Assembly: GCA_023957475.1 (NCBI GenBank)
Contig: JAMLHA010000001.1
Span: 248,001 to 312,000, forward strand
From: Crocinitomicaceae bacterium
GTDB taxonomy: Bacteria; Bacteroidota; Bacteroidia; Flavobacteriales_D; Crocinitomicaceae
Reading direction: 5' to 3'
DNA length: 64,000 nt
The position numbers and the translations under genes are program-made. The notes under the pieces are model-generated. The model saw nothing but the letters and a program-made list of their open reading frames with translations. It made no database searches and was not told the DNA's origin. Position 1 is the first letter of the stretch. Every line of letters starts with the position of its first letter. Shown here in pieces: positions 38,587-46,838 of the stretch.

Positions 38587-39984
38587 ATGGAAAATAAAAA
38601 AACAAATCGTTTAAGAACATTAACAGAGCCATTTAAAATTAAAGTAGTAGAACCTTTAAAAGTAACTACAGAAGAATACCGTGAAAAAGCATTAGCTACT
38701 GCGGGTTACAATACTTTCCTTTTAAGTGCAAAAGACGTATTTATCGATTTATTAACTGATAGTGGTACTGGTGCCATGAGTGATCATCAATGGAGTGCAA
38801 TCATGCTTGGAGATGAGAGTTATGCTGGTGCTAGAAGCTGGGAGAAATTGGAAGCGGTAACAAAAGACCTTACTGGAATGCCGTATGTGTTGCCTACTCA
38901 CCAAGGGCGTGCTGCAGAACGAATTTTGTATTCTACAATTGGCGGAAAAGGAAAGTTTTTCATCAGTAACACCCACTTTGATACAACAAGAGCAAATATT
39001 GAATTTGTAGGCTCAACAGCAATCGACATTGTATGTGAAGAAGCTCAAGACAACCAATCAGATGCTCCTTTTAAAGGGAATATTGATTTGAAAAAATTAA
39101 GAGCGTTAATTGCAGAACATGGGAAAGAAAATATTGCAGCTGTTATTATGACGGTGACTAATAACTCTTCTGGAGGTCAGCCAGTTAGTATGGAAAACTA
39201 TAAAGAAGTAAGAAGAATTTGTGATGAAAACGGTCTCTTTTTAGTTATGGATGGTTGCCGTGTTGCAGAAAATAGTTACTTCATTCACCATAGAGAACCA
39301 GGATACAATACAAAATCATTTAGAGAAATTGCACAAGAAATGTTCTCTTTATCTGATGCTTTTGTTATGAGTGCCAAAAAAGACGGTTTAGTGAATATGG
39401 GTGGATTGTTGACATTGAGAGATAGTGAATTAGCTGTTCAATGTAAAAACTTACTAATCATTTCAGAAGGATTTGCTACTTATGGTGGTTTGTCTGGAAG
39501 AGATATGGAAGCTTTGGCTGTTGGATTAGTGGAAGTTTTTGACGAAGATTATTTACACTACCGTATAAAAAGCACAACCTATCTAGGAGAAGGACTTCGT
39601 AAAAAAGGAATTCCTGTAGTATGGCCAATTGGAGGTCACGCTGTCTATATAGATGCAAAAGAACTTTATAAAAATATACCTTTAAAAGAATACCCCGGAC
39701 AAGCATTAGTATGTGACTTATACCTTAAAGGAGGCATACGTGCAGTAGAAGTGGGGAGTGTGATGTTTGGTAAATACGATGAAAACGGAGAATTGATACC
39801 TGCCGAAAAAGAATTAGTCCGTTTAGCTATTCCTCGACGTGTTTACACCCAAAGTCACATTGATTATGTGTTAGATGTATTTGATGATATCATTGAAATG
39901 AGAGATCAAAAAACAAGAGGATTTGAAATTACCTATGAACCGCCTTTTTTAAGACACTTTACCGCCAACTTTAAACCTTTGTAG
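38587..39984 (+). CDS. tnaA: beta-eliminating lyase, tryptophanase type
   Basis: A 465-residue PLP enzyme. The PLP lysine lies in MSAKKDGLVNMGG (about residue 262). Substrate-specificity positions follow tryptophanase: Asp in HFDTTRAN (the equivalent of Asp137 in P. vulgaris TnaA) and the sequence AVEVG (Val at the place of tryptophanase Val/Ile394, where tyrosine phenol-lyase has Arg). It should split L-tryptophan to indole, pyruvate and ammonia. It lies 21 bp after nadB and 26 bp before a paralogue with the opposite residues. The symbol rests on these positions as I recall them. Confidence 0.85.
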   Translation: MENKKTNRLRTLTEPFKIKVVEPLKVTTEEYREKALATAGYNTFLLSAKDVFIDLLTDSGTGAMSDHQWSAIMLGDESYAGARSWEKLEAVTKDLTGMPYVLPTHQGRAAERILYSTIGGKGKFFISNTHFDTTRANIEFVGSTAIDIVCEEAQDNQSDAPFKGNIDLKKLRALIAEHGKENIAAVIMTVTNNSSGGQPVSMENYKEVRRICDENGLFLVMDGCRVAENSYFIHHREPGYNTKSFREIAQEMFSLSDAFVMSAKKDGLVNMGGLLTLRDSELAVQCKNLLIISEGFATYGGLSGRDMEALAVGLVEVFDEDYLHYRIKSTTYLGEGLRKKGIPVVWPIGGHAVYIDAKELYKNIPLKEYPGQALVCDLYLKGGIRAVEVGSVMFGKYDENGELIPAEKELVRLAIPRRVYTQSHIDYVLDVFDDIIEMRDQKTRGFEITYEPPFLRHFTANFKPL

Positions 39985-39998
39985 AGAGTAAAGAATAA

Positions 39999-41399
<1,401 letters not shown>

Positions 41400-43465: not shown

Positions 43466-43888
43466 ATGAAGATAAAGACAATACATGTATTCTTGTTACT
43501 AAGTGTGCTGTATTTATTGTATTCATTAAACATTTACTTAAAACCTTTACAAGTTAAAGAGGTAACAACTGTCAATAAATTTGATATGACTGAAGGACGT
43601 TTAGTGTGGCAAAAATACAATTGCCAAGCCTGTCATCAATTGTATCATTTGGGAGGTTATTTAGGACCTGATTTGACCAATGTTTATTCTAAATACAACG
43701 GCAATGCTGATGTGATTAAAGGTTTTGTCAAAGCGGGTATTCGTCAGATGCCTAGTTTTAATCTATCCACTGAAGAGGAGCGTTTATTAATTGAGTTTTT
43801 AAAAGAAACGGATGCTTCTGGAAGCTCGGATATGAGAAATTACAAAGTACTACCTAACGGAATGATTGAACAAGATGGAAAGAAATAA
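43466..43888 (+). CDS. membrane-anchored cytochrome c, NorC-like
   Basis: A 140-residue protein with one N-terminal membrane helix (about 6-22) and a single c-type haem site CQACH (about residue 51-55). A Met in IRQMPSF (about 91) is the likely sixth ligand. WQKYNCQACHQLYHLGGYLG and PDLTNVYSKY closely follow the NorC pattern, in which the cytochrome c donates electrons to the NorB subunit. Its end overlaps the start of the NorB-like gene by 14 bp, so the two are made as a pair. Confidence 0.87.
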   Translation: MKIKTIHVFLLLSVLYLLYSLNIYLKPLQVKEVTTVNKFDMTEGRLVWQKYNCQACHQLYHLGGYLGPDLTNVYSKYNGNADVIKGFVKAGIRQMPSFNLSTEEERLLIEFLKETDASGSSDMRNYKVLPNGMIEQDGKK

Positions 43889-45227
43889 AACGATAGTAGG
43901 AAGAAAGTTTTTAAGTCTTGCTTTGGTTTCATTGTTTGTGGGACTGATAGGAGGTGTTTTGGCATCTATTACCTATATTAAACCTGATTTTTTGCACGAT
44001 TTTCAAGGATTGTCCAAGTTGCGCCCTATTCACGTGTCATTTGTCATGTTTTGGATTATTATTGCTGCAAATGGAGGGGTGTATATAGGAATGTCTCTAT
44101 TGTCCAAAAATAAACCGTTAAAGTTAATTTCTAACCTACAAATTATTCTGTGGATTATTGCCTTGTTGGGTATTGGGTATTCTTATCTTATCGGTGATTT
44201 TGGAGGAAGAGAATATTGGGAGTTTAATCCCATCTGGGCATTACCTATATTGATTGCCTTGGTATTGCAGTTGGTAAATTTCATTCATTTAGCAAAATCA
44301 TTGGAGAAATGGCCTGTGTATGTTTGGATGTGGATGTCTGGAACTGTATTTTTTCTCCTCATTTTTATTGAAAATTACCTATGGTTGTTTCCTTATTTTA
44401 GAGCTCATTTCATAACCGATATGACCATTCAATGGAAGGTAAATGGTTCGTTAGTTGGTTCGTTTAACCAATTGGTGTATGCCACTGCTTTTTTCATGAT
44501 GGATAGAATAAATGGAACTAAAGAATTTAAAATAGGAAGCAGTAAATTGGCATTCTCAATGTGGCTTTTGGGATTGGGAAATATGATGTTTAACTGGAGC
44601 CATCATATTTATACGTTACCGACAGAAAGTTATATCAGATACATTGGTTACATCGTAAGTATGACGGAATGGATTATTTTCTTACGAATCGTTTATTTAT
44701 GGAAAAACTCTTTGAATGATTTTAAGAAAAATTACCACTATTTCCCGTATCGCTTTATCATGGCATCGGATATTTGGGTGTTTATAAACGTTGGATTTGC
44801 TTGTTTGATGTCCATTCCTGCTTTAAACATATTTACTCACGGAACTCATTTTACAGTTGCTCACTCAATGGGAACAACAATAGGTATTAATACAATGATA
44901 CTTCTAGCGTGTGTCTTTATGTTCTTTACGCCTAAAAAAATACAAGATGCAAAACCCTCCAAATCATTAAGCATTGTTTTTTGGGTGATACAATTATCCC
45001 TACTTTCATTATTTTTATCACTAAAAATTAGTGGAGTTATTAAAGGATTTTGGCAATTAGATGCCAATCAAAGTACTTTTTATGAAATGATGCAAGGATT
45101 GCGCCCGTTTTTTATTGTATTTGTTATTTCGGGTACAGTTCTAATGCTTGGTTTCTTCTATTTAATAGGAACAATTTATCGTTATTCAAGAATTAATAAA
45201 AATCAACCATATGAGTCAGAAAATTGA
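43875..45227 (+). CDS. haem-copper oxidase superfamily catalytic subunit, divergent NorB-like
   Basis: A 450-residue protein with about twelve membrane helices. It has the low-spin-haem His in LRPIHVSF (about residue 53), the two active-site His in NWSHHIYT (243-244) and the high-spin-haem His in THFTVAHSMG (330). Two normally conserved His are not seen: the helix VI metal ligand (the segment reads QWKVNGSLVGS, with Asn at about 190) and the second helix X His (Met at 332). Genes for a NorC-like cytochrome and an Rrf2 regulator suggest nitric oxide reduction, but an oxygen reductase is possible. The start is ATG 43875. Confidence 0.82.
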   Translation: MERNKTIVGRKFLSLALVSLFVGLIGGVLASITYIKPDFLHDFQGLSKLRPIHVSFVMFWIIIAANGGVYIGMSLLSKNKPLKLISNLQIILWIIALLGIGYSYLIGDFGGREYWEFNPIWALPILIALVLQLVNFIHLAKSLEKWPVYVWMWMSGTVFFLLIFIENYLWLFPYFRAHFITDMTIQWKVNGSLVGSFNQLVYATAFFMMDRINGTKEFKIGSSKLAFSMWLLGLGNMMFNWSHHIYTLPTESYIRYIGYIVSMTEWIIFLRIVYLWKNSLNDFKKNYHYFPYRFIMASDIWVFINVGFACLMSIPALNIFTHGTHFTVAHSMGTTIGINTMILLACVFMFFTPKKIQDAKPSKSLSIVFWVIQLSLLSLFLSLKISGVIKGFWQLDANQSTFYEMMQGLRPFFIVFVISGTVLMLGFFYLIGTIYRYSRINKNQPYESEN

Positions 45228-46383
45228 TTTAAATAATACAGAAATCGCATTTGGTTATAAATCGAATGCCGAATTAAAAAATTCCCTTTTTATTTTTGGG
45301 TTACTTCAAAAACCTGCATTAGTGAGTTTACTAACGAAGGTAGCAGATTGGATTATTAAGTACAAAATACCTTTAAAATTTGTTCTTCGTAAAACTGTAT
45401 TTAAAGTATTTTGTGCAGGAGAAAATCGTCAACAGGCTGCTTTAACGATTAAGCATTTGCAAGAGTTTAAAGTTAATACAGTGTTGGACTATGTTGCAGA
45501 AGGTGATAATTCTGAAGAAAGTTTTGAAAATAATCTCAATACCATTTTGACAAACATTCAGTTTGTTAGTGAAAATGCAAAAAATGCTACTGTTGGTGTA
45601 AAATTGTCTGGTTTGGAAGACGTTAATTTCTTGAAGAAGTTTAAACAAACCAATGAAGGAAAAACAGATGAAGAAAAGGCTCGTCTAGCTCGATTTGTTG
45701 AAAGAACCGATAAAATTTGTAAAGCGGGAAGCGATAAAGTCGTGAAAATATACATTGATGCAGAAGAATATTCTACACAGTTTATTTTTGACGATGTAGT
45801 GGAACAAATGATGGAAAAATACAATAAAACAAATGTCATTGTTTACAATACTCTTCAAATGTATTTGAAAGATAGAGTTGATTACTTGAATAAATGCATC
45901 GTTGATGCGAAACAGAAAAATTTCTTGTTAGGCATGAAACTTGTAAGAGGTGCTTATGTAGAGAAAGAAAGAGAATATGCAAAAAGAGATGGTGTACCGA
46001 GTCCAGTTTTTGATACAAAAGAAGGAACAGATACGTCATACAACAAAGCGTTGACAATTTGTTTGGAAGAACATCAATTGATACATACTTGTTTGGCATC
46101 ACACAATCAAAAAAGTGTGGAGTTGGCCATTCAATTAATTGAAGAATTAAAAATTGAAAACCATTACGATAAAGTGTTTTTCTCACAATTGTATGGCATG
46201 AGTGATAACTTAACATTCAATTTAGCCAACGCTGGATATAATTCTTCAAAATATGTGCCTTACGGAGAAGTAGAGAAAGCAATTCCTTATTTAATGAGGA
46301 GAGCTGAAGAAAATTCTTCAATTGAAGGACAAGTTGGAAGAGAATATGAATTACTTCTTCAAGAAAAGAAAAGAAGAAAATAA
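45211..46383 (+). CDS. proline dehydrogenase
   Basis: A 390-residue FAD enzyme (single-domain proline dehydrogenase, without the P5C dehydrogenase half of PutA). It oxidises L-proline to P5C, feeding electrons to quinones at the membrane. The barrel motif GMKLVRGAYVEKERE (about 239-253) and the C-terminal YGEVEKAIPYLMRRAEENSS (about 351-370) are the family signatures. Its ATG lies inside the last codons of the NorB-like gene (17-bp overlap), so the two are coupled in translation. That suggests proline oxidation is regulated with the reductase. Confidence 0.93.
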   Translation: MSQKIDLNNTEIAFGYKSNAELKNSLFIFGLLQKPALVSLLTKVADWIIKYKIPLKFVLRKTVFKVFCAGENRQQAALTIKHLQEFKVNTVLDYVAEGDNSEESFENNLNTILTNIQFVSENAKNATVGVKLSGLEDVNFLKKFKQTNEGKTDEEKARLARFVERTDKICKAGSDKVVKIYIDAEEYSTQFIFDDVVEQMMEKYNKTNVIVYNTLQMYLKDRVDYLNKCIVDAKQKNFLLGMKLVRGAYVEKEREYAKRDGVPSPVFDTKEGTDTSYNKALTICLEEHQLIHTCLASHNQKSVELAIQLIEELKIENHYDKVFFSQLYGMSDNLTFNLANAGYNSSKYVPYGEVEKAIPYLMRRAEENSSIEGQVGREYELLLQEKKRRK

Positions 46384-46394
46384 ACCAAACGCTT

Positions 46395-46838
46395 ATGTTT
46401 ACAAAAGCTTGCGAATACGGAATAAGAGCGTGCTTAATTGTTGCTCAATATTCAATAAATGAGAATCGAATCAGTTTGAAAGAAATAGCCACTTCCATTG
46501 ATTCTCCAGAGGCCTTTACGGCAAAAATTTTACAGAAGTTAGTAAAAAATAAAATTTTATATTCCATTCAGGGACCACAAGGTGGATTTGGTATGACCCC
46601 TGAAAATATTGAAAAAACAACTCTTCAAAAGATTGTTTATGCCATAGATGGAGATAGTTCATATACGGCTTGTGTATTGGGTTTAAGAGATTGCTCGGAT
46701 AAAAACCCTTGTCCTGCTCATAAAAAATACAAACACATCAAAGCTGATTTTTTGGAAATGATTCATACAACTACTGTGGCTGATATGGTCAATGACGTAG
46801 AAAAAGGATTGGCATTTTTAAAATTAAATGAAGATTAA
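46395..46838 (+). CDS. Rrf2-family Fe-S regulator
   Basis: A 147-residue transcription regulator. The N-terminal winged helix (about 1-70, MFTKACEYGIRACLIVAQYS and QGPQGGFGM) is that of the Rrf2 family. Three Cys in ACVLGLRDCSDKNPCPAH (about 96-111) are spaced for an iron-sulfur cluster, in a pattern closer to NsrR than to IscR. NsrR senses nitric oxide, and this gene ends the operon that holds a NorCB-like pair, so NO-responsive control of the operon is a reasonable inference. It starts 11 bp after the proline dehydrogenase gene. CymR-type or IscR-type roles are alternatives. Confidence 0.85.
   Translation: MFTKACEYGIRACLIVAQYSINENRISLKEIATSIDSPEAFTAKILQKLVKNKILYSIQGPQGGFGMTPENIEKTTLQKIVYAIDGDSSYTACVLGLRDCSDKNPCPAHKKYKHIKADFLEMIHTTTVADMVNDVEKGLAFLKLNED

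Follow-up and report, generated by a model that had tools for sequence, protein, structure and literature searches.

A NorB-like haem-copper family of Bacteroidota without two ligand histidines and with a probable role in handling nitric oxide at a remodelled active site

The window, a 64,000-nucleotide stretch of DNA from a Crocinitomicaceae bacterium, encodes a NorB-like subunit of the haem-copper superfamily; X is used here as the label for the Bacteroidota family to which this protein belongs. According to the open reading frame and its translation, the frame is unbroken from an ATG at 43875 to the stop at 45227, with a TTG at 43866 as an alternative start codon. The start of X is overlapped for 14 bp by the upstream cytochrome gene, and its 3' end for 17 bp by a downstream proline dehydrogenase-like gene. 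The pair lies in a co-directional run of nadA-like, nadB-like, two tryptophanase-family, ligase-like, cytochrome, X, proline dehydrogenase-like, and Rrf2 genes, where the names nadA, nadB, ligase, and proline dehydrogenase were read from translations and the Rrf2 and tryptophanase genes were matched by profiles. The ligase-like frame just before the cytochrome (683 amino acids) resembles acetate-CoA ligase in its translation. The principal genes are as follows.

38587-39984, tryptophanase-family gene 1, profile-matched
40011-41399, tryptophanase-family gene 2, passing the tyrosine phenol-lyase cut-off
43466..43888, + strand, NorC-like membrane-anchored monohaem cytochrome c (CQACH, Met95, GGY calcium loop), assigned by NorC similarity
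43875..45227, + strand, X, NorB-like haem-copper superfamily subunit of 450 amino acids with a 12-TM fold (Pfam COX1 5e-27, AlphaFold2 model)
45211..46383, + strand, proline dehydrogenase-like gene, named from sequence and not by profile; the next gene in 23/79 X loci
46395..46838, + strand, Rrf2-family regulator with three Cys (Pfam Rrf2 6e-22, rrf2_super above cut-off)

An Rrf2 gene is present in 41/79 X loci in the neighbour counts. The two tryptophanase-family genes adjoin each other (38587-41399). Many Bacteroidota loci show the succession nadA-nadB-tryptophanase-like-cytochrome-X, a hint that amino-acid catabolism is co-regulated with X. Five haem-copper superfamily genes are found in the host genome, which also has a conventional norC-norB followed by norQ and norD and encodes NirK and NosZ, both above their family cut-offs; therefore, X is an extra gene beside the normal denitrification genes.

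Residues of X were compared across 83 orthologues and in a joint alignment of 40 X, 11 cNOR, 10 qNOR/NOD-like, and 8 cbb3 sequences. The positions that bear on the haems and the metal site are the following, all on the + strand.

44031..44033, +, His53, helix II, low-spin haem ligand, kept in 83/83
44211..44222, +, Glu113 and Glu116, equivalents of E135 and E138 of Pseudomonas aeruginosa cNOR (83/83 and 82/83)
44370..44372, +, Glu166, X-specific invariant acid near the end of helix V (83/83; S, P, or V in other families)
44436..44438, +, Lys188, X-specific invariant residue one helical turn from Gly191 (83/83; W, Y, M, or C in other families)
44442..44444, +, Asn190, the ligand proposed by the first-pass annotation (N 68, Y 11, A 2, G 1, S 1 of 83)
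44445..44447, +, Gly191, column of the helix VI metal-ligand His (Gly in 40/40 X sequences of the joint alignment and in 83/83 orthologues)
44466..44468, +, Asn198, column of cNOR Glu215 (83/83; Glu in cNOR/qNOR)
44601..44606, +, His243-His244 pair of helix VII, kept in 83/83
44667..44669, +, Glu265, equivalent of cNOR E280, kept in 83/83, in a column common to the cNOR Glu
44862..44864, +, His330, proximal ligand of haem b3, kept in 83/83
44868..44870, +, Met332, column of the low-spin haem His of helix X (Met in 83/83, and in 40/40 in the joint alignment)

His53 is supplied by LRPIH, His243 and His244 by WSHH, and both His330 and Met332 by AHSMG, while the helix VI segment reads QWKVNGSLVGS (44430-44462). 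The histidines picked out at first reading, in helix II, the HH pair, and one position of helix X, are thus invariant throughout the orthologues, and the two reported missing are just as uniformly gone. Six ligand histidines are the signature of the haem-copper superfamily (PMC3413370); X has four of them, with Gly191 and Met332 at the other two positions in all 83 sequences. The helix VI column is His in 11/11 cNOR, 10/10 qNOR/NOD-like, and 8/8 cbb3 sequences, and the Met332 column is His in all cNOR, qNOR, and cbb3 sequences compared. The three His plus Glu211 that define the FeB site of cNOR are broken in X by Gly (40/40) and by a gap at the Glu211 column (40/40), a gap that the joint alignment also places in cbb3. 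Similarly, the bis-His coordination of the cNOR low-spin haem b is lost, since the second His is Met in every orthologue.

The surroundings of the haems are retained. E135 is a calcium ligand of P. aeruginosa cNOR and E138 is its neighbour (residue roles from PMC3431322, PMC4816578); in X, these calcium-site residues between the haems are kept together with H330, H53, the HH pair, and the E280 equivalent, and the residues replaced are the helix VI His, Glu211, and the second low-spin His. N318 and H322, the latter also invariant in the 83-sequence alignment, match the haem b3 propionate partners of cNOR (numbering from PMC4816578, PMC3431322). Because the haem, calcium, and cytochrome residues are kept, X and its cytochrome are expected to contain haem c, haem b, haem b3, and the calcium bridge, so that the change concerns the non-haem site. 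The first-pass annotation had proposed an Asn-type metal site together with a His/Met low-spin haem. Asn190 was rejected as a metal ligand, for it is Y, A, G, or S in 15/83 orthologues and the ligand column falls on the invariant Gly191; a His/Met haem is plausible, an invariant Met standing exactly at the low-spin His column. Glu166 is a candidate new ligand or proton relay.

The partner cytochrome keeps the CxxCH motif, the axial Met, and the NorC GGY calcium loop, with C53, C56, H57, G63, and M95 conserved in 83/83 sequences. It shares 27% identity (E 8e-15) with the NorC of the same genome and lies directly upstream of X in 78/79 loci. Leu62 occupies the position of NorC E70c; the E71cQ change abolishes the activity of Paracoccus denitrificans NOR (PMC4816578). 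Beyond the cytochrome, neither a second conserved partner of X nor a signalling domain was found.

X orthologues occur in 16/150 genomes sampled from the host's family (10 genera; one is a fragment). In a scan of species genomes, 483 stretches encode a relative of X, and the best 80 of these 483 loci, which were retained, are nearly all from Bacteroidota, including Planktosalinus and cultured Flavobacterium such as F. antarcticum and F. sasangense; by sequence similarity, the X family is spread across this phylum. Two carriers, L112 (filed under Competibacteraceae) and L093 (filed under Thermoanaerobaculia), have neighbour genes in common with the Bacteroidota loci; their contigs are possibly misbinned or the product of transfer, and they were left out as evidence of spread beyond Bacteroidota. 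A plasmid search returned only distant relatives of 22-24% identity, one of which, when examined, has the cNOR gene order. X is under purifying selection (dN/dS 0.03-0.19 between close pairs), and its substitutions are fixed in the 83 orthologues. This bears out the first-pass view that an intact frame coupled to a NorC-like cytochrome is not a decaying gene, and the ligand losses are, on these alignments, fixed features of a functional family.

The IQ-TREE phylogeny places X in a group of its own (support 100/96), apart from cNOR (92/87), qNOR (100/99), and cbb3 (100/100); cNOR and qNOR are joined at 100/98 with X excluded, and the position of X relative to cbb3 and the NORs is left loose by long branches. 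A place within the canonical cNOR clade, which the first-pass annotation had named as evidence against its reading, is therefore not what the tree gives, and membership of cNOR or cbb3 is rejected by both tree and residues. Pfam COX1 matches X at 95 bits against a cut-off of 34.8. No NCBIfam model claims X, there being superfamily-level matches only, and the ccoN equivalog is not reached (38.9 bits against a cut-off of 583). Profile comparison, like the fold, groups X with cNOR and cbb3. A first AlphaFold2 model, resting on 13 sequences, was weak around the active site, and a model from 83 sequences (pLDDT 90.3) was used instead. It gives Z 40 to cbb3 3mk7, 39 to cNOR 4xyd, and 37.5 to cNOR 3o0r, matching CcoN and NorB over 413-440 residues, nearly the whole length; fold similarity by itself says nothing on the function of X.

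Gene neighbourhoods and co-occurrence associate X with nitric oxide. RIC/ytfE is an NO-damage repair gene, and proteins of the RIC/ScdA/YtfE type are iron-sulfur repair proteins. Among the 150 family genomes, RIC/ytfE is above cut-off in 14/16 genomes with X versus 16/134 without (Fisher p 8e-10). Genes for c/qNOR (4/16 versus 1/134, p 4e-4) and NosZ (4/16 versus 5/134, p 0.008) are enriched as well, and the association with NirK is not significant in the same genomes (p 0.16); these p-values are optimistic, since the genomes are related and the tests ignore kinship. In addition, seven genomes have RIC at a distance of 3-14 kb from X, and this physical linkage is a second line of support for the NO link. 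Many X loci carry genes for RIC/ScdA/YtfE-type proteins, truncated globin, hemerythrin, NosZ/NosL/NosD, or Rrf2, and Crp/Fnr and the anaerobic ribonucleotide reductase NrdD/NrdG are also found as neighbours. In L058, L060, and L079, the X pair is closely preceded by norC-norB-RIC-like-norQ-norD, and a single tryptophanase-family gene intervenes in L079. Such evidence is of association and not of substrate. As c- or qNOR was found in 4/16 genomes with X and not in the other 12/16, X is not strictly a substitute for these enzymes, nor strictly their companion. X was also rejected as the missing nor of genomes with nir and nosZ: four genomes with nirK and nosZ and without c/qNOR (G066, G077, G101, and G109, all from the 150-genome family sample) are also without X.

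Two further types of membrane protein accompany X. A conserved multi-spanning protein of about 405 amino acids (L044:13497-14705(-)), which matches no Pfam family and bears a haem-copper-like His motif (HHAHSHFAFIGW), is found in 16 X loci; in L084, L085, L087, and L109, its gene lies shortly before the X pair. Another, of about 430 amino acids (L038:16028-17299(-)), is of a type carried by five X loci, and Pfam recognises in it only a 65-residue piece of COX1, close to the C-terminal end.

Taken together, these data make it probable that X acts on nitric oxide, and does so at an active site that has been rebuilt; the best reading of the sequences is that the X pair forms a cytochrome c-fed, NO-handling two-haem complex whose non-haem metal site is rebuilt or absent. 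The specific scheme that follows is held tentatively, at slightly under even confidence. The gene pair would form a NorC/NorB-shaped complex of a separate family, in which electrons would enter at haem c and pass through a low-spin haem b held by His53 and Met332 to haem b3. NO would bind at haem b3 and be consumed there, most likely by reduction to N2O, a reaction that we infer. A second metal, if present, would be held by His243, His244, and a carboxylate in place of the three-His-plus-Glu FeB site, the putative ligand being either Glu265 or the family-specific Glu166. It would not be loaded by NorQ/NorD, and the function of the complex would lie in detoxifying or responding to NO, not in mainstream denitrification. 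That the HH pair and Glu265 are invariant speaks for a metal rather than an empty site, and a 2-His-1-Glu iron site designed in myoglobin has been reported to reduce NO (Lin 2010, as cited in PMC6696605).

The strongest alternative is that X is a non-catalytic relative without a second metal, either binding NO at haem b3 for buffering or sensing or only carrying electrons between cytochrome c and another partner. We consider this doubtful overall, yet it has to be taken seriously, since X has lost three cNOR active-site residues and its cytochrome the NorC E70c equivalent; with the helix VI His, Glu211, Glu215, and that Glu all gone, the complex could be without any NO reduction. The loading of FeB bears on the same question. 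NorQ and NorD insert FeB into cNOR, docking on D220 and E222 of NorB, and when cNOR is produced in the absence of norQDEF, it carries its full haem complement but neither FeB nor activity, so that a protein of this kind folds without turning over (PMC9976466). The docking acids are lost from X in the joint alignment, and NorD/NorQ orthologues are absent from 14 of the 16 genomes with X, occurring only in the two that also have cNOR; therefore, norQ and norD follow cNOR and not X. However, qNOR is loaded without NorQD (PMC9976466), and by analogy the second metal of X, if any, may be loaded in the same way. Against a non-catalytic role, moreover, the HH pair and Glu265 are hard to explain in 83 orthologues without metal or catalysis, X has no signalling domain, and its only conserved partner is a cytochrome.

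An enzyme of the same build might instead act on O2, nitrite, or hydroxylamine under microoxic conditions, which we regard as unlikely. The fold is equally close to cbb3 oxidase and cNOR, the tree does not separate the affinity of X between cbb3 and the NORs, and NrdD/NrdG and Crp/Fnr as neighbours speak of low-oxygen life in general. However, C-type oxygen reductases have a cross-linked Tyr in helix VII and NORs are without it (PMC3084760). X is also without it, with Met237 at this column in the window protein, so that O2 reduction, the other activity allowed for by the first-pass annotation, is improbable; the neighbouring genes for RIC, globin, and Nos proteins suggest nitrogen oxides.

It is highly improbable that a misalignment hides an ordinary three-His site completed by a different residue. 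Methods differ by one residue in the helix VI register: the His pairs with N190 in the X-cNOR profile-profile alignment (a one-residue shift) and with Gly191 in a profile alignment to solved cbb3 structures. Helix VI of X is, as aligned, without His in either register. No conserved His lies between residues 54 and 242, and H178 of the RAHF segment, a possible substitute ligand already considered at first reading, was rejected, being His in only 49/83 orthologues; an extra conserved His325 stands at the start of helix X near His322, in the cNOR haem-propionate region, and not in helix VI. That X is a decaying paralogue on its way out is scarcely credible, since nothing beyond the missing ligands speaks for it and the frames are intact across a large family with low dN/dS, fixed rather than scattered substitutions, and a conserved partner gene.

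The proposed NO-handling complex can be set beside known systems. X resembles cNOR (NorBC) in its 12-helix fold, the NorC-like cytochrome gene just upstream, the calcium-site glutamates, the HH pair, the haem b3 His, the E280 equivalent, the THGT loop, and the lack of a cross-linked Tyr. Unlike cNOR, it has Gly for His207, no Glu211, Asn for Glu215, and Met for His349, is without NorQD docking acids and norQD genes, is paired with a cytochrome with Leu at NorC E70c, and forms a separate clade. With CcoN of the cbb3-type (C-family) oxidases it shares the fold (highest Z), the haem and calcium-site residues, a helix VI that starts with QW, and the absence of the cNOR Glu211; unlike cbb3, it is without the helix VI His and the helix VII Tyr, one low-spin His is Met, and a small monohaem cytochrome is the only partner seen, with no CcoO/CcoP. 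The putative NO dismutase (NOD, qNOR-type) offers a natural precedent for a changed FeB ligand set and an NO-related role. However, NOD changes one FeB His to Asn and a Glu to Gln on a fused qNOR, whereas X keeps the HH pair and Glu265 (83/83) and has the helix VI His and a low-spin His changed instead. The NO reductase families eNOR, sNOR, gNOR, nNOR, and bNOR, likewise found via altered active-site residues, are related to B-family oxidases (PMC11388526), and subunit II of eNOR is a cupredoxin (PMC8756737); X, whose partner is a NorC-like cytochrome, is set apart from them by their descriptions only.

No description of the X family was found in the open literature searched, where the newer NOR families were compared by description only, and its status as a new family is provisional. 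One classifier discarded sequences without six conserved histidines (PMC3084760), and a denitrification survey removed those without conserved ligand-binding domains (PMC12569097); X has probably been overlooked because surveys discard sequences without the six histidines. The wider proposal is of a superfamily enzyme, widespread in Bacteroidota and hidden by six-His filters, that has a His/Met low-spin haem and reacts with NO at haem b3 without a three-His site, using either a 2-His-1-carboxylate iron or no second metal; we put it forward as a possibility, with somewhat less than even confidence. Bacteroidota are notable for genomes with nosZ but incomplete denitrification. If the proposal is true, a large, conserved family that violates the six-His rule would add an unseen NO-handling step to many of them, and X would show, as an experiment of nature, how much of the FeB site is needed for NO chemistry.

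Other unusual superfamily members were met in the course of the analysis. Four Bacteroidota contigs encode, within several kilobases of X, proteins of the qNOR type that bear the signature of NO dismutase (SHN for HH, STLQ for Glu); in these NOD-like neighbours, the second His of the HH pair is Asn (motifs SHN...LQ).

L107:5172-7478(-), qNOR-type protein with NOD signature
L090:1090-3432, qNOR-type protein with NOD signature
L065:499-2913, qNOR-type protein with NOD signature
L062:1-1764, qNOR-type protein with NOD signature

Finally, L004:1459-2940 (G000:C29, about 136521-138002) encodes a haem-copper subunit I that is B-type-like; the gene upstream is for a CuA-type subunit II and the one downstream is SCO-like, all as read from the translations. 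Helix VI of this subunit I reads GHTIAN, with Asn where the cross-linked Tyr would stand, the state tabulated in PMC8756737 for sNOR/CuANOR. The host genome may hold cNOR, an sNOR-like enzyme, and X.
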